Shown here piece by piece: positions 10,118 to 33,588 of a stretch of 64,000 nucleotides of DNA. Location: contig CAUYUJ010014604.1 of NCBI GenBank assembly GCA_963575745.1, forward strand, positions 62,001 through 126,000, written 5' to 3'. How positions within the stretch are numbered: the first letter of the stretch is position 1; every line of letters begins with the position of its first letter. The stretch is from Prorocentrum cordatum (lineage: Eukaryota; Sar; Dinophyceae; Prorocentrales; Prorocentraceae). The notes below the pieces were generated by a model. It saw only the letters and a list, made by a program, of their open reading frames with translations. It was not told the DNA's origin and ran no database searches. The position numbers and the translations under genes are program-made.

Positions 10118-10164
10118 TCCGTAGCCCCTTTGGCTCAAGGCCGTAATTACCTCTTTGGCTCAAG
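10118..10164 (+). other. tandem spliced-leader relics
   Basis: Positions 10118-10139 match the 22-nt dinoflagellate spliced leader at 20 of 22 places: TCCGTAGCC, then CC in place of AT, then TTTGGCTCAAG. Directly after it, 10140-10164 begins GCCGTA and ends CTTTGGCTCAAG, a second diverged leader. Genomic leader copies in tandem are the known mark of trans-spliced mRNA that was reverse-transcribed, re-inserted and trans-spliced again. The sequence downstream should therefore be a retro-copied transcript. Confidence 0.7.
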
Positions 10165-25781: not shown

Positions 25782-26340
25782 GTCCGGTTCAACAGCAGTT
25801 GCCCTTGCAAGTCTATAGAGTTGTTTGAGAGCCTTTTCAGCAAGGGCGCCCAGGAGGGCAACAATCCTTTGAGTCGATTGCCTGGTTGTTGTGCTGCTCC
25901 AGGCAGTCCAGGTTTTACCGCCGAAGAAGTCGCTTTGTACAGGCGAGAATATTGGCATGGCAGCCGAGCGTTTTGGTCCCACCCCCGTTTCGCCTGGCGC
26001 GTTTGGTGGTTTTTGACCGGCCTTGGTGGCAGTCATGGACCGGGTGCGGGTGTTGTCCCCGCGGGAGCTGCTCCGCCCCCTCTTCCGGAGGCGATGGTGC
26101 GTCGGCCGCGCGCCGATCCTTCCTGGCGCGGGGTCGTCCCCCAGTGCAGCGGTCCCTGGTGGCTTTGGCCCCGGGTGCTTGCCCGGCGCGGGTCCCGTTC
26201 CCCGGCGCGCGCGGCAGCGCCGTCGGGTGGCCTTGTGGATCCCGGGCGGCGTACCCACTGGATTCACTCGCTGACGTTTCTTTGGCTCCAGAACTTGTCC
26301 CACCTCCACTTGCGGCGTCTCCATCAAACGGATTGTGAGC
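25782..26340 (+). pseudogene. P4 ORF1 N-terminal part
   Basis: MSGSTAVALASL is followed by a stop after 12 codons. Other frames carry the low-complexity Pro/Gly/Ala-rich head of ORF1 (APRRATI; later ARGRPPVQRSLVALAPGACP). The segment 26140-26215 is close to P1 13805-13880. RNA-binding residues of the C-terminal half are absent. Confidence 0.5.
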
Positions 26341-26429: not shown

Positions 26430-26827
26430 ATGTTTCATTCTCAGTGCGGGCTCATTTTAATTGCGTGTTGGTACCGTCCGCCCCATTGCGGCGAACTTGC
26501 AGCGATTAATTCTTGCTCAGCAGAGTGGTCCCGACACGCGTCTTTAGCTATCGGAACATTGGAGACTTGAATTTACACCATGTCCAGTGGCTACGCTTCT
26601 CCAGACACACTAGCCCGGAGGGAATCGCGATGCAGAATTGGTGTTCGTTACGTGGTTTCAAGGAACGCGTCAAAGCACCAACTAGGGGCGCTAATTTTCT
26701 CGATCTTGTTTTAACATATCTTCACGAGCAGATCGAGTGCGCGGTTCTTCCCAAGGTCGCCAACCATTCTCTCGTTTTCTGCTCTCTTTCGTTTCCTCCT
26801 CTCCTTCCGTCTACGGTCGTGCGCCGA
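26430..26827 (+). pseudogene. P4 ORF2 endonuclease C-terminal half
   Basis: GDLNLHHVQWLRFSRH (from about 26552) matches GDFNVHHAHWLRYSH of P6, with Asn kept. Then APTRGANFLDLVLTYLHEQI and VANHSLVF follow, where Asn replaces the Asp of the final motif. The last 156 bp are repeated at 31278-31433. Confidence 0.7.
26672..26827. repeat. 156-bp flanking duplication, left copy
   Basis: It aligns without gaps to 31278-31433 with six mismatches. It starts AAAGCACCAACTAGGGGC and ends GTCGTGCGCCGA, within the endonuclease of P4. It flanks family Q and is the likely target-site duplication. Confidence 0.85.
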
Positions 26828-27156
26828 ACCGAACCGAACGGAGCCGTGCGCCAAAAGCGCGTGGGCATTACAAATGCGCGCCAGCAATGACAGTTGCACA
26901 CCAAATGCGTGCACAAGGCGGCCAGGACGCGCCAAATGCGCGCCGGGAGGGCGGAGGAGAGGAGGAGGAGGAAGAGCAAGAAACCATTGTTTTGCAGCCT
27001 GCCAGGGTACAGAGGCAATCAATAGTTATTACAGCCATTCTTCATCGCTGTCGTGAGAGTGGCGGCCGAGAGCAAACTTCGTAACAAATGCGATCCAGAC
27101 AGATTCGTTTGTGAGGCAATCCAATAAGTCTGACTCTGAATGAAACAATATCGGAA
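26828..27156 (-). other. family Q 3' UTR
   Basis: It contains several CAAATGCG(C/T)GC words (plus strand, 26870-26945) and a purine tract. The 3' terminus carries GAACC repeats (plus strand) instead of an A run, a tail type known in some LINE clades. Confidence 0.6.
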
Positions 27157-28419
27157 CTAATTGTATAAACTTTTTGCCCACTCGTGCCTTGGACGTCCGG
27201 GGGCCCGAACGCACGAGTCGGTGGAAGGTCGTATGTTGCTTGATTGAAAAGTCAATTGTCTCAACAAGTCGTCAGCGCTTGATCTTCCTATCTTCCCAAA
27301 CCATATTAATTGTTGATGCTTCGACAATTGCGAACTATACTTTGATGTCCCGGCTCTGAGCAAAACTGTTTTATTTGATATTCTAGACACGTACGAAGGA
27401 GGAATATTCAGGATTTGGCGAAGGCAGCGCGCTTGGAATCCATCCAATTTCTTTCTTTCTCGTTTGTTCAGCCAGGTTGAGTTCAAAGAATGCATACCTT
27501 TGCTGGTAATCAGCGCCCCAAACACTTCAAGCTTTCTTTGGATAGGTATTGACGTATGTTTCCATGCTCTCGCGTATCTTTGGAATTCGCCCCATGCGGC
27601 CCCGAGTCGTCTGTTGAGTTCGTGCTGGAGCCTCCCATCGTTATATATAGTTGCCCCCAAATATAGAAGATGCTCACCTGATTTGATGATGTTCCCACGT
27701 GGATCTCGCAAGCGAAAGTCGCAATCTTTCTGAAATAATTGGAATTTGTTCCAATGTAGTTTCATGCCGATCTCTTCCCCTGCCTCCGCGATCGCGTCCA
27801 AAACGCGTTGCAAGTGGTATTCGTTATGGCCCACCAATAGAGTATCATCGGCATATAGAAGAATCGATGCTTCCCCTTGAATCAAAGACCTTCGCGTCTC
27901 TTCGTCCAATTTGTTCTCTGCGCGTTTGATTACTACGCTCATCGCCATCACAAACAGAAAAGGTGAGAGCGCACACCCTTGTGCTCTCCCAGACAATTGG
28001 TTCCGTTCGCTGGACCGCTTCGGGCCTTCAGCCACGCGAAACTTTTTGTTTTCATATATGTGGCCAATAATTCGAAACATGTGAGCGGGCGCGCCAAATT
28101 TTTCCAAAGCGTCCAAGAGGGCCAAAACATTGATTGAATCGAATGCCTTTTTCCAGTCCAACGGCAGTAGGGCGAGTTTGCCATCCCGTCTCGCATGGGA
28201 TGCTTCAATATGACGGCGCACAGCGTGAATGGCATCCGTCGTCCCCCGTTGCCTTCTGAAACCGAATTGTGTTGCGGTGAGTCGATCTTCTGCCCCTGCT
28301 CGCTGGAGTTTCCCAAGTAAAAGAGTTGCAATAATATTGTATATTACGCATAGCAGTCTGATCGGGCGGTAATTGTCGCATTGATCAACTGGGTCTTTAT
28401 GTTTATATATTGTAGACAC
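27157..28419 (-). pseudogene. family Q ORF2, reverse transcriptase domain
   Basis: The palm motifs are all visible: DNYRPIRLL (about 15-23), FGFRRQRGTTDAI (52-64), motif A LPLDWKKAFDSI (catalytic Asp 88), motif B GRAQGCALSPFLF (144-156), motif C LLYADDTLLVG (Asp 191 and 192; codons at 27855-27844) and a late YLGATIYNDG block. The end reads GRPRHEWAKSLYN. It belongs with the APE-type LINE proteins and is clearly different from family P, which has FADD. It continues the frame of the upstream part across a TAA at 28447-28449 and nine further codons, so the protein would be truncated. Confidence 0.9.
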
Positions 28420-28446
28420 ATGTGCATGACGCCATTCTGCCGGAAC

Positions 28447-29079
28447 TTATTTGTTCCTCCAACATGTGTTCACCATATGTGTAATGCACTGTAGGCCTTG
28501 AAGGTCTGATGCCAGTGCTTTCCAATACTCAGCCGGTACGTCGTCAGGTCCGCTGGATTTTCCAAGTTTCACTTGGGAGATGGCGGCTCCAACTTCTTTA
28601 TTTGTGAAATCATCATCTGGGATGTTCAGAGGGGGTCCCAAGGAACCCGTATCCACAATTGCCGCCGGGCGCACCTTCCATTGCATTTTTTCCAAATATT
28701 CCGCCATAGTCTCTGTCTTCTCTTCGCTGTCCACTATTTCGCCTTGCAGATTGTGGAGCCTGCCTTGTCTGTGCGATTTTGGCCGGCACATTTTCTTCAG
28801 CGAATCCCAGGCTCCTGCAGCAATGGCGTCATCAACCCATGTTGTTATATCTCGTTTGACTGCGCGTCGCACTTCTTCCAACAATTCTTTCTCCAAAGGT
28901 TTGTTGTGTGACAATCGTGTTGTATTTCGCTCCGCAATCAAATCCAAAGTATGCTGCGTAACCCATGGTCGTTGTGTCGCACGTTCCCGAAAAGGTAGCT
29001 TTGCTTTCGCAATGGCCGCCGCATCCTTAGCATTGGCCCAAAGATCTTCCACATGGTGCCTCTCCACCGTGTGTGCCAT
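28447..29079 (-). pseudogene. family Q ORF2, linker and start of reverse transcriptase
   Basis: This is the same frame as the parts on either side. It holds the linker PWVTQHTLDLIAERN, a basic region, and the first palm motif with KSSGPDDVPAEYWKAL near its end. It closes at TAA (28447-28449). The reading after the stop is VPAEWRHAHVSTIYKH, continuing the domain, so a CAA-to-TAA change is the simplest cause. Confidence 0.85.
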
Positions 29080-29082
29080 GAA

Positions 29083-29937
29083 TCATTCTACAAATTGAGT
29101 GCGAATGGTGTCGTCGTCCAGGGCTGTCAAATCGCGTTTTCGGCACCTTGTTTGTCTTCTCGGTTGTATTTGAACCGCAATCTCGAAAGTAATAAGAACA
29201 TGATCGGTGGCTAAAGCAGCTTCTCGATGACTCCGTAAATTTTTGATTGTATCCAGCATGCAAGGTCTGCAGAGCACAATGTCCAAGATATTATGGGTTG
29301 CAAGATTGATTGGCGAAAGCGGTCGCGTTCCTGGTTCTCGGAAAGTTACCTTTCTTTCCAAACATTCGTCAAAGGAAGTGTTTGCGATAAGTATTTCTGC
29401 GCTCGTGCAGAATTCCAGTGACAAATCTCGATTTGGTGTGTCCACTTCGTGGATGGCTTCGCGACCCCGCCCGAATTCTCCAACGACGTCCTCTTCTCCA
29501 GGGTGTTTTCGCCCGATTCTTGCGTTGAAGTCTCCAATGAAGAATTTTGCCAAATTTGCGTTGCACGCCCTGTGTTCTTTATCCAACGTGTCGTAAAAAT
29601 CAATGCGTTCCGGGAGCGGCCTCATGTTGTGCGGGGCATATACATTGAAGATTGCAAGTGTTGCGCTTTGGATGCGTAACTTGAGTATGCATATTCTTTC
29701 AGAAACTTGTTTGAAGCTTTGTATGTGACGGCGAAGACGAGGTGCCACTACAAAACCCCCGGCCCAAGATATTGAGTCTTCGCTTGATCCTGAGAGTACG
29801 AATTGATACCCATTCTGTACGTACACATCTGCCTTCGTTTTCCGAGTTTCTTGTAAGCACAGAATGTCGATATTGCGTTGTTTCATGTGTGTGAAGAGTT
29901 CCCATACTTTCACTTCTGTGAGTCCACAAACGTTCCA
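29083..29937 (-). pseudogene. family Q ORF2, AP-type endonuclease domain
   Basis: This domain nicks the target. SWNVCGLTEVKVWELF at its start carries the usual N-terminal Asn (from about 29937). DILCLQETRKTKAD has the catalytic Glu. FNVYAPHN, FFIGDFNARIG (Asp, Asn), TRPLSPINLATHNILDIVLC and ATDHVLITFE (Asp-His pair) complete the fold in order. It ends at TGA (29083-29085), and the frame goes on after it with FMAHTVERHH. A stop also lies just before SWNV, so the true start of ORF2 is unresolved. Confidence 0.85.
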
Positions 29938-30113
29938 ACTTCACATTTTATTGTTTGTATTGCCTGAATTTATGAATCTGGATTCGCAATTGGAGATGGA
30001 ACAGAACGGATGGTAACTTTGCCCAAATCGTTTGTTCCAATATTAATCGATTGAGTTGTAATCTCCGGGAGTCTCCTGGAGGGTGAAACTATGCCTCTGT
30101 ACCCTTGGCTCCT

Positions 30114-31178
30114 TCAAGCTGTTGGTTTCCCTTTGCCCATTCCCTTTGAAGCAAATGCTGCATTCTTTTCCAATTTGTCCCTGATTTGTTGTTGTAATTC
30201 AATCCATTCGGGAGCTGTTTGGAGATCTTCCCAAGTCTTCCACGATTCTTTGACCCATTCCAAATTGAGCGTGTAATCAACAACGGATACTTTGAGAACC
30301 ATTTTCCCTCCGGCCTTCAATGTGCCAGTATCTCCGTCGATTTTGATATATTTTTGTCGAAGCCCCATTTTGTAAGAATGTGCCGCAAACCAAGTAATGT
30401 GGATGCGGCAACTCTCTTTTGCATAGGAGTGTCTTTGTTGCACCACACCCTGCGGGATCCATCTTTCGGCATTTGTTCGGCGCACGCGGTTTGCAGAATC
30501 GGCAATGCTTTTTTCACAAATGTGTTGTGAAGCAAATTCTGTGAATAACATGCCTTTGAAATCTTCCTCGGGCGGGCTTTTCTTGTAGCTCTTCAGTGGC
30601 AAATCATATTGGCCATTCTTTAGCGTGGCAAGTGCCCAACGTTCTGCGTCGATTACTGAGGCATGCGATAATCCACCAAAAACTAAAATTGAAGAATTGT
30701 TTTGCCCGCTTCCGGCAGATGTTGTCGAAGTCGTAGTGCGGAGTGTTTCCATTTCTTTCCGGATCTCTTCCATGCATTTGTCGATGTATGCCGGCGTGGT
30801 ATTAGCATGATGTTGAAGCTCGTCGATATTGTGTTCCATTTTTGTCACCCGGGTATTGTTCTCGTCGTGGTACTTCTTTACGGTATTATTTAAATCTTGA
30901 AAGTCATATCCAAGAGTTTGAACAACACGCATTGTCGGAGCAAGATGTTTCTGAAGCATTTTCTGCATGGTCTGCATAGTTACCGGCTCGTCTTCTCCAT
31001 CATCAGAAAGATTATCTTCGTCTTCGCCGTCAATGTCCAAGGTCTTTTGCTTCGCGTTCGTGTCCACATTGTCCATCTTTGCAGCTTTCTTGTCCGGTGC
31101 TTCAGGATTGCTTCCTTGAGGTTTAAGCTTCCTGCCAGTAGGATCTTGAAGGGCGGGGGCCGCGGACATACCAGACAT
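30114..31178 (-). CDS. family Q ORF1 protein
   Basis: This intact 354-codon frame is the presumed RNA-binding chaperone of the element. An acidic N-terminal region (DIDGEDEDNLSDDGEDEP, about 48-65) is followed by a helical, probably coiled-coil stretch (about 68-148, MQKMLQKHLAP through MEEIRKEMETL). A folded part starting SILVFGGLSHASVIDAERWA (about 163) has the look of an RRM-type domain, and the tail is basic (KNAAFASKGMGKGKPTA). The ATG at 31176-31178 lies about 60 bp after the leader relics, so the 5' UTR is short. Domain calls other than the acidic and helical parts are inference from layout and from LINE ORF1 families. Confidence 0.75.
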   Translation of the reverse strand: MSGMSAAPALQDPTGRKLKPQGSNPEAPDKKAAKMDNVDTNAKQKTLDIDGEDEDNLSDDGEDEPVTMQTMQKMLQKHLAPTMRVVQTLGYDFQDLNNTVKKYHDENNTRVTKMEHNIDELQHHANTTPAYIDKCMEEIRKEMETLRTTTSTTSAGSGQNNSSILVFGGLSHASVIDAERWALATLKNGQYDLPLKSYKKSPPEEDFKGMLFTEFASQHICEKSIADSANRVRRTNAERWIPQGVVQQRHSYAKESCRIHITWFAAHSYKMGLRQKYIKIDGDTGTLKAGGKMVLKVSVVDYTLNLEWVKESWKTWEDLQTAPEWIELQQQIRDKLEKNAAFASKGMGKGKPTA

Positions 31179-31237
31179 CAGAAGGATGTAGCTGGGAAAT
31201 TTGTCGGTGCCTTACTTGCTTGAGCTTCAGCCGAGAA

Positions 31238-31280
31238 CTTGAGCCAAAATGGCTTGAGCCAAAATGGCTTGAGCCAAAAA
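31238..31280 (-). other. three tandem spliced-leader relics at the 5' end of family Q
   Basis: On the minus strand, CCATTTTGGCTCAAG occurs at 31252-31238 and again at 31267-31253, preceded by TTTTTGGCTCAAG at 31280-31268. The first two match the 3' fifteen bases of the dinoflagellate spliced leader exactly. They mark the outer 5' edge of the element, touching the 156-bp duplication. Confidence 0.92.
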
Positions 31281-31433
31281 GCACCAACTAGGGGCACTAA
31301 TCTTCTCGACTTTGTTTTAACAGATCTTCACGAGCAGATCGAGTGCGCGGTTCTTCCCAAGATCGCCAACCATTCTCTCGTTCTCTGCTCTCTTTCGTTT
31401 CCTCCTCTCCTTCCGTCTACGGTCGTGCGCCGA
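31278..31433. repeat. 156-bp flanking duplication, right copy
   Basis: This is the partner of 26672-26827, at about 96% identity with no gaps. It restores the P4 endonuclease frame, which then continues into the reverse transcriptase. Confidence 0.85.
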
Positions 31434-31643
31434 GGACGGAAATATTCGGAGGCTTCCTGGTTGTCGCTTAGACGCCGCTTCCGGCAGACAGATTGGGAAT
31501 TTATTTGCCGTCTTCGTCCAACCGATGCCGCTGTGCAGCTCGCAAGTGTGATTTTAGACGGCATGCGAGATTTTATTCCGTCTGTCTTGATCTAGTCGTC
31601 GTCGTCGCCGCACCCTTGGCTGACGACGGATTGTCTAGATAAG

Positions 31644-32870
31644 GTGCGGCTGAAAGCACAGGCCGAGGGCTCGCCAGAGTTTCGATTTGCAGTCCGAGCT
31701 TGCAGCCATGCTATGTTGAATGCTTCTCGCGATTATATCGGGCGCACTCGTGCTACGCTTCGCTCGATCCGATCTGGCAGCAAAGGCTGGTGGAAGCTGT
31801 CTCGTGATTTAATGTGTAAAGTCTCCAAAGAAGTTTCGCCGCCTCTTCGAACTCCAGACGGCGCTTGGGCGATCCAGGCGGCCGACAAGGCAAACGAATT
31901 TGCACGATCTTTCGAAGTAAAATGGCAGAGTCCAGTTTTTATCCCCACAGCGTTTTCTCTTCTCCCTCCTCCCTCCTCGCCTTCCCTTGGCCTCCCTCCT
32001 CTCCGTCTCCGCCCCGCTTCGAAAGTCTTGCAGGATTTGAACATTGACAGTGGCGCGGGGCCGGACTTGATCCCAGCTCGTGTTTTGAAGGTGTGCTTTC
32101 AAGAATTGTCTCTTCCCATTGTTCTTCTTGCTCGTCGTGTTCTGTCGTGCGGAGAGTGGCCGCGCTGTTGGGCCATCCACTGGATTCACCCCCTTTTCAA
32201 AAACAGGTCGAAGCACGACGCTGGCAATTACAGAGGAATCCATCTTACTTCACAAGTTTCCAAGGTCGTGGAGCGGCTGATTGCTTCTTTGTTTGTGCCC
32301 CGGCTTTTGCGGGAGTTGAGTTATGGTGATTTTCAATTTGCTGACGCGCCTGGCAGAGGATCGAGAGATGCGATGTTGTTTTTCGTTATGACCTGCCTCG
32401 TCGCATTCGGCGCTGGGAGGGGTGTTGCTATGTGCAGCTCCGACGCTGCTGGTGCGTTCGACAGAGTCTCAGCCGACCGCTTAAAGGCCGACTTAGGAGC
32501 TCCTGATTTGCATCCCTCCGTGTTGGCTGTCCTCAGCAGTTGGCTGGCGCCGCGCGCGGCGAATGTAGTTGTTGAGGGTGCACTCTCTGGTGCGATCACC
32601 ATGACTGACATGGTATTTCAAGGCACTGTTTTGGGCCCTGTTCTGTGGAACGTCTTTTATTCCGACTCCAAAGAGGCCGTCCGCAGTGTAGGTTTTCAAG
32701 AAATCATATTTGCTGATGACCTCAATGCGTCTAAAGTTCTAGTGCGAGACGAGACCAACGCAGAGGCCTATGCGGCAATGCACGAGTGTCAGAACAAATT
32801 GCATTCCTGGGGGCACGCAAGCGGTGTAGTTTTTGATGCGGATCTTATCGCATTCCCAGCCGCATGGTGA
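31644..32870 (+). pseudogene. P4 ORF2 reverse transcriptase
   Basis: The same frame is open from 31239 except for one TAG at 31593-31595, so the endonuclease end and the polymerase are nearly continuous. Motifs are GSKGWWKLSRDL, DSGAGPDLIP, NYRGIHLTSQ, motif A CSSDAAGAFDRV, MVFQGTVLGPVLW and FADDLNAS (FADD codons at 32709-32720, about residue 356). A shift near 32860 moves the rest to another frame. All catalytic aspartates are present. Confidence 0.8.
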
Positions 32871-33588
32871 CAGTTTCAGGTCCTTGGGAGTCACATTCGG
32901 CAGCAAGCTTCTCATGGGAGACGCCATTTCTGAGTGTCCTTGCGAAGCAGGCTGGCGCTCCCGGTCTATTTCAAATTGTCGCCGTTATTATAACACTCGG
33001 GAGTCGATCTTTCTGTGCAAAAGCCACATCGCGTCGTATATTGAATACCGGGCGGCAGCCATCAGCCACGCCTCATCTACCGCACTGTCTGTTTTAGACT
33101 CGGTGCAGTATCGGTTTCTTCGAGCGCTTGAAGTAACCGAAGAGTCAGCACTGAAGGGCCACTGTTTGGCTCCGCTATCTGTCCGCCGGGATATTGCTAT
33201 CCTTGGCCTTATCCACCGCAGTGCCATTGGTCTGGGACCTCTCATGTTTTCCCGTTTCTTCCGCCCCGCCCTTCCCCTTTCTTCTGATCCCCCTCGTTCC
33301 TCTCGCTCCCGCTCTTCGCCCCTCCACGGCAGGCAACTCCAAGTTCCATGCAGCGCCTCTGCGCCAGGTTATGTCCGCAGGTCTCCTCTTGGAGGCGCCC
33401 GGTTGTACGGTATCTTACCGGAGGCAATCGCGCGCCAACCAACTGTCCACGATTTTCCATGCATGCTGCAGTTGTTTCTGTGCCCCCTGGCCCGCGTGGG
33501 AGACGCCCAGTGGAAGGTTTTGCTTTCGTGGCGTCAGCCGTTCGCCTTCCACCCTCTCCTGGCTCATCGCGCGTGGGCGCCGGCTTAG
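32833..33588 (+). pseudogene. P4 ORF2 C-terminal part
   Basis: The continuation in a second frame reads LGVTFGSKLLMGDAI, YIEYRAAAISHASSTAL, then CLAPLSVRRDIAILGLIHRS and GGARLYGILPEAIARQ. It ends at 33588 just before the pyrimidine-rich UTR. Confidence 0.75.

Follow-up and report, generated by a model that had tools for sequence, protein, structure and literature searches.

We found that copies of the host spliced leader (SL) lie inside the insertion, directly abutting the target-site duplication, in three LINE retrotransposons of the dinoflagellate Prorocentrum cordatum (the family Q element and the elements at loci L011 and L024), and that leader arrays head relatives of Q and many other LINE families. 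Judged from the sequences, Q and many other LINE families very probably transpose through host trans-spliced RNA, with the SL-bearing RNA as the intermediate. Papers cited below by PMC number are represented by excerpts of their text.

Three spliced leader relics stand at the 5' end of family Q

The window, by which we mean the whole stretch of 64,000 nucleotides that was analysed (52.2% GC), contains a minus-strand element, family Q, at about 26,828-31,280. The dinoflagellate SL is a 22-nt sequence printed in PMC7245778 as DCCGTAGCCATTTTGGCTCAAG. Read directly on the minus strand from 31280 down to 31238, the 5' end of Q is TTTTTGGCTCAAG-CCATTTTGGCTCAAG-CCATTTTGGCTCAAG, followed by TTCTCGGCTGAAGCTCAAGCAAGTAAGG... 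These are three tandem SL relics, the two inner ones being exact 15-mers equal to SL nt 8-22, which is the unit of a DinoSL relict, while the outer unit is truncated. The ORF1 ATG lies at 31178 with 59 nt between it and the array, which confirms the preliminary description of three tandem relics about 60 bp before ORF1 on the minus strand. The exact pair reported there also holds; the partial outer copy is corrected to only 10 to 13 leader bases, since its first three T are common with the target. This outermost TTT also belongs to the target-site duplication, which ends in GGTGCTTT.

Across the window, the 12-mer TTTTGGCTCAAG was found 5 times with at most one mismatch, compared to 0.64 expected and a maximum of 3 in 100 shuffles. 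Inward of the relics, between them and the remaining 5' UTR (31219-31237, minus strand), lie leader units that are probably older and decayed (TTCTCGGCTGAAG and CTCAAG), and a decayed unit CGGCTGAAG with 2 mismatches can be read within about 31,219-31,237. These inner units were compared with those of a relative of Q, L031, which reads TTGGCTCAAG TTGGCTCAAG CAAGTAAGG.

Elsewhere in the window, at 10118-10164 on the plus strand, we observed two neighbouring decayed leader copies that are nearly full-length (TCCGTAGCCCCTTTGGCTCAAG and GCCGTAATTACCTCTTTGGCTCAAG).

Family Q has the structure of an autonomous LINE

Q encodes an open ORF1 of 354 aa (30114-31178, minus strand), for which a search of the protein collection gave no homologue among 970 candidates at E ≤ 0.001. 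ORF2 follows on the same strand in three parts of a single frame. The endonuclease (EN; 29086-29940; PF03372, E 2.5e-06) is followed by an in-frame stop, the linker between EN and reverse transcriptase (28450-29082) has a second in-frame stop at its end, and the reverse transcriptase (RT) occupies 27160-28446 (RVT_1, E 1.1e-33). Sequence matches of the RT in the PDB include LINE-1 ORF2p and R2, as for an RT of the non-LTR type. The 3' untranslated region (26828-27156, minus strand) ends in TTCGG-type repeats and has no poly(A). Q therefore combines a non-LTR RT, an APE-type EN located 5' of the RT in one frame that is interrupted by two stops, and a flanking target-site duplication with no long terminal repeats. 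Within the window, Q and its flanks match, besides Q itself, only the 156-bp duplication. By structure Q is a LINE of the autonomous type, as the preliminary description had proposed, and the copy in the window carries two in-frame stops in ORF2.

Among proteins, the Q RT (27160-28446 against P0001) was matched best by a eukprot sequence labelled Pyramimonas sp., a green alga, with 74% identity over 68%; contamination, prey and transfer are candidate readings of this match.

The leader relics lie within the Q insertion

Q sits inside a plus-strand LINE of family P, the right part of which covers 31434-33588 and the left part of which lies before 26672. Both copies of a 156-bp target-site duplication directly adjoin Q: the copy on the 5' side of Q (31278-31433, minus strand) is identical at 149 of 156 positions to the copy on the 3' side (26672-26827, minus strand). 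When the flanks were joined as an empty site, the P endonuclease frame was continuous, with 114 aa aligned to another P copy at 36% identity. Because the duplication abuts the relics, the leader of Q is inside the insertion and part of the copied RNA, and its assignment to the element itself is upheld. The same position of the leader within the insertion, a feature of DinoSL relicts, was found at L011 and L024. The divergence of 4.5% between the duplication copies suggests that the insertion of Q is not very recent. For a LINE, a duplication of 156 bp is very long; those at L011 and L024 are about 14-18 bp.

Leader relics are not visible on every LINE here. Near the P1 and P3 copies in the window we found no leader-like 10-mer with up to one mismatch, the 5' ends of P being undefined. 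One leader-like 10-mer, with 1 mismatch, is located at 26,282 in the left part of the P copy that Q interrupts.

Relatives of Q carry leader ladders at the same edge

To find relatives of Q without the leader as bait, the 5' UTR and the start of ORF1, with the relics excluded, were used as the query. This gave 21 matches, among which two pairs were pieces of one place each; L044 and L047 were dropped and 19 loci were kept, including the window copy (L029). The motif TGGCTCAAG, allowing one mismatch, occurred 25 times, including 3 in the window copy, in the 2,660 bases at the 5' edge, compared to 2 times in the other 57,305 bases of these loci. When the motif was permuted 2,000 times, no permutation attained 25, and the largest count was 15. 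At least one leader-like unit was present at the 5' edge of 11 of the 19 loci (6 with an exact unit), or 10 of 18 without the window copy. The other eight (L030, L033, L034, L035, L037, L042, L046 and L049) had no unit at the 5' edge at up to one mismatch, and two of these, L046 and L049, matched the query inside ORF1 only. The expectation that other full-length copies of Q have leader sequence at the same 5' position was thus borne out in ten relatives and not in these eight, which may include copies that are not full-length.

The ladders vary in composition. L043 reads CATTTTGGCTCAAG-CCATTTTGGCTCAAG-TTGGCTCAAG-TGGCTCAAG-TTGGCTTGCAAG, L031 has two 10-nt units, and L032 and L041 have odd spacers. 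Allowing up to two mismatches, the spacing of units among the relatives was 9, 10, 13, 15, 16, 19 or 26 nt. Within one subfamily (L039, L041, L043, L045 and L048) the inner unit is seemingly common while the outer parts differ, as judged by eye. The outer unit was nearer to the SL than the inner unit in 5 of 10 multi-unit loci, with 4 tied and 1 reversed, so any age gradient along the ladders appears weak. Inner units are often 10 nt apart, with TTGGCTCAAG repeated (L031, L032, L036, L039, L043 and L048), a spacing that re-use of CCGTAG leaves unexplained.

Leader arrays head many other LINE families

Exact copies of the leader were counted on both strands of the assembly (4,128,499,153 bases in 21,875 contigs), with the backwards sequence as the control. 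The SL 15-mer was present 23,175 times (control, 3), the full 22-mer 12,939 times (control, 0), the tandem 30-mer of two 15-mers 1,813 times (control, 0), and three 15-mers in tandem 278 times (control, 0). Subtracting 278 from 1,813 leaves about 1,535 exact arrays with at least two 15-mers. The tandem 30-mer was absent from viral_contigs. Inverted pairs of the leader 15-mer close together were observed at G000:C1:1741686-1741736 and G000:C13:4057-4255.

The relics are not private to Q, and many other LINE families are headed likewise. The first 20 distinct tandem 30-mer places listed (L009-L028), which are not a random draw, were searched with RT and EN profiles built from this genome (RT seeds L019, L027 and L024; EN seeds L019, L015 and L018). 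RT was found downstream on the strand of the relics in 16 of 20 loci and on the other strand in none (binomial 3e-05), starting 2.8-5.2 kb downstream of the relics, and EN was found on the relic's strand in 10 of 20 and on the other strand in none (binomial 0.002). The scores of the seed loci are not independent; without the RT seeds, RT was present in 13 of 17 loci. When six loci were submitted to Pfam, EN or RT was reported in five (L019, L027, L015, L024 and L018) and not in L016. The L019 RVT_1 match (25.0 compared to 29.6) and the L024 EN match scored under the curated cut-off, and the L019 EN match scored above it. The stop-free frames with Pfam RT matches are 2,213 aa long in L019 and 2,354 aa in L027. 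No RT was detected by the profile search in L009, L013, L020 and L025, of which L020 holds 3,590 N and L025 contains a WW-domain frame of the kind that a retrogene might have.

Among the 6-kb downstream parts of these 20 loci we found no DNA alignment except short matches between L009 and L013 and between L011 and L020, and pairwise RT identity was 10-51% (the 13 loci that were long enough, Q and three P copies). Since the loci are mostly unalignable as DNA and their RT identities are this low, many LINE families carry relics. The Q and P proteins had no match in L009-L028 at E ≤ 1e-4, and the LINEs of these loci are therefore neither Q nor P.

A target-site duplication marks the boundary of two of these elements. 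At L024 an 18-bp duplication, ACGTGCCCAGGTATTGAG, stands on both sides; its 5' copy ends at SL nt 1 (GCCGTAG, last G shared), 5,171 bases lie between the duplications, and both RT and EN were found. At L011 a duplication of at least 14 bp is followed by SL nt 1-7 with two substitutions and then two 15-mers, with 5,095 bases between the duplications; RT was found there and EN was not. These two were the loci with an abutting duplication among the seven tandem loci outside simple repeats that the strict search covered, the other five having none; the 13 of 20 loci located in simple repeats were skipped. A loose search of the tandem loci gave several matches, which were non-abutting or repeat.

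The simple repeats beside the leader have a preferred strand. Pyrimidine made up at least 90% of the 30 nt on the 5' side of the leader at 11 of these 20 loci, mostly as (TCC)n, and at 2 this flank was nearly pure purine. Across the assembly TCCTCCTCC preceded NCCGTAG... 1,841 times compared to 100 times for GGAGGAGGA (matched patterns, one register each), counts which take in every full-length SL copy, whether at a LINE or not. Target choice can account for this bias, as can microhomology between TCC and the leader's initial UCC, or the two together. By-eye tallies of the first leader base gave T/A/G = 92/6/2 among 100 full-length sites listed, with a pattern that excluded C, and T/G/A/C = 51/38/8/3 at the 100 GGA-flanked sites. 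These tallies lend some support to microhomology at the leader start.

Alternative explanations for the arrays

The preliminary description had named an ordinary minisatellite as a finding that would refute it, and a 15-bp repeat that merely resembles the leader now has practically no probability. Tandem Repeats Finder does call a period-15 repeat at 31238-31279 (2.8 copies, 100% matches), but in 17 of the 20 tandem loci the outermost unit continues into SL nt 1-7 as CCGTAG, which refutes this reading. The spacing of units in relatives of Q is also variable, from 9 to 26 nt, and like arrays head many unrelated LINEs, the 30-mer count of 1,813 standing against 0 in the backwards control. It is highly improbable, too, that the relics are those of a host retrogene or a fragment of an SL gene, with LINEs landing adjacent by chance and the relics not part of the element. 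According to the excerpts of PMC6050394 and PMC12014239, retrogenes commonly have SL relics, and no RT was detected in 4 of 20 tandem loci; however, in Q, L011 and L024 the leader is enclosed by target-site duplications, and the presence of RT on the relic's strand in 16 of 20 loci, starting 2.8-5.2 kb downstream, and on the other strand in none also speaks against this reading. As for an SL gene fragment, four loci (L010, L011, L018 and L026) continue directly after the array with GT or GC, which is donor-like, but all four have RT, and Q continues TTCTCGG, not an intron donor. An SL RNA gene at Q was rejected, since by the donor rule excerpted from PMC6616646 the continuation TTCTCGGCTGAAG is not a donor.

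A different question is whether the relic count reflects rounds of transposition. An SL RNA gene with two or three SL units could have donated all of them in a single trans-splicing event, in which case relics and rounds would not correspond. Tandem-SL genes have been reported in Fugacium kawagutii, where the excerpted text proposes a single-event origin (PMC6616646), and both full relics of Q are exact. We consider this unlikely because the spacing of 9 to 26 nt with odd spacers in the relatives of Q does not fit one donor with a period of 15, the subfamily of L039, L041, L043, L045 and L048 seems to share the inner unit and differ outside it, and in Q an older decayed unit lies inward of three exact ones. 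The variable spacing, the spacers and the decayed inner unit thus speak for several events in the history of family Q. Each relic of Q likely represents one round of transposition, as the preliminary description had supposed, but the number of rounds may be lower than three if several units were donated together by a tandem-SL RNA gene (PMC6616646). Finally, the relics might be kept mainly as a mobile promoter, with TTTT/TTTG of the leader starting transcription and trans-splicing being secondary. Such a role of TTT(G) in retroposed leaders was proposed for retrogenes (PMC6050394), but according to the same excerpt few tandem arrays would be expected if the promoter lay within the relic, compared to the about 1,535 exact arrays here. 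A start inside the relic would also lose the outer leader, and we regard this explanation as quite improbable.

A model for renewal of the LINE 5' end

A LINE must regain a complete 5' end from its own transcripts, and the known answers to this include internal promoters and self-cleaving ribozymes. Host trans-splicing appears to supply this recovery in the dinoflagellate. We propose that a read-through transcript would enter the element from outside, since a start within the relic would lose the outer leader. The spliceosome would then cut at an AG at or near the element 5' end, typically that of the CCGTAG left by the leader of the previous cycle, and a new capped 22-nt leader would be joined at that AG, by which the flank would be trimmed and a capped 5' end restored. 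Copying of this mature RNA into a new site by the EN and RT of the element would extend up to the leader, so that the new copy would begin with leader bases and each cycle could rebuild the 5' end of the element. Re-use of the internal CCGTAG would leave inner relics of exactly SL nt 8-22 (15 nt) and an outermost one of the full 22 nt if untruncated. That a relict marks RNA trans-spliced before copying, with the old CCGTAG as the next acceptor, is the established reading in the excerpts of PMC3229502, PMC12014239 and PMC7245778. With a pyrimidine tract beside it, the AG may be well suited as the splice acceptor of the following cycle.

On a broader form of this model our judgement is evenly balanced. 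Trans-splicing would be the standard renewal of LINE 5' ends in this genome: the inserted leader would bring its own AG acceptor and the (TCC)n orientation the pyrimidine tract, read-through RNA would be trimmed precisely and capped, the ladders would be a record of generations, and LINEs would be a strong candidate for the retrogene machinery. Leader ladders may permit the transposition generations of individual elements to be counted.

Relation to known systems

LINEs linked to spliced leader sequence include SLACS/CRE, which insert into SL RNA genes as their target, whereas here the leader appears to be acquired from RNA. Microsatellite-targeting LINEs insert into simple repeats, as the elements here do into (TCC)n; the difference is that the orientation here places a polypyrimidine tract before CCGTAG.

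A close likeness is to the DinoSL-relict retrogenes of dinoflagellates (Slamovits and Keeling 2008, as cited in PMC6050394), which in the excerpts of PMC3229502 and PMC12014239 share the 15-nt relict cut after SL nt 7, the tandem arrays and the re-integration of cDNA. The retrogenes derive from host genes copied by a retroelement that the excerpt of PMC6050394 states to be unknown, with LTR elements favoured, whereas the carriers here are LINEs, machinery and copied RNA together. LINEs copied from their own leader-bearing RNA show directly that the machinery of LINEs acts on RNA of this kind, which bears on the retrogene question, and surveys that score SL relicts as retrogenes may partly count LINEs. 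For viral sequences that carry relict leaders, integration by LINEs has been suggested (PMC10235124), and the excerpt of PMC8045281 describes relicts at genes and the abundance of LINEs separately. In the literature searched, mostly without subscription papers, we found no statement of SL relics on dinoflagellate LINEs. Transposon RNAs of Hydra likewise receive the host leader (PMC12220107, excerpt); the evidence there is from RNA, whereas here the new copies hold the leader in their DNA, within target-site duplications. The trypanosomatid LINEs L1Tc/ingi also live in a trans-splicing host and have a 5' end to regenerate from transcripts, but L1Tc, according to the excerpt of PMC4748587, uses an internal promoter with an HDV-like ribozyme and unspliced transcripts, compared to no Rfam family reached at gathering scores in 14 loci (126,562 bases) here.

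A further feature of the tandem loci is a 5' UTR motif near GGATACCGCTAGTCCGCGG, common to L010, L016, L018, L019, L022, L026 and L027 and located up to 80 nt past the relics. It is weak in L016 and L022, and these LINEs are otherwise unalignable. At several of these loci a putative GC-rich hairpin precedes the motif with a stem that differs by locus; judged by eye, a second putative stem also varies on both sides.
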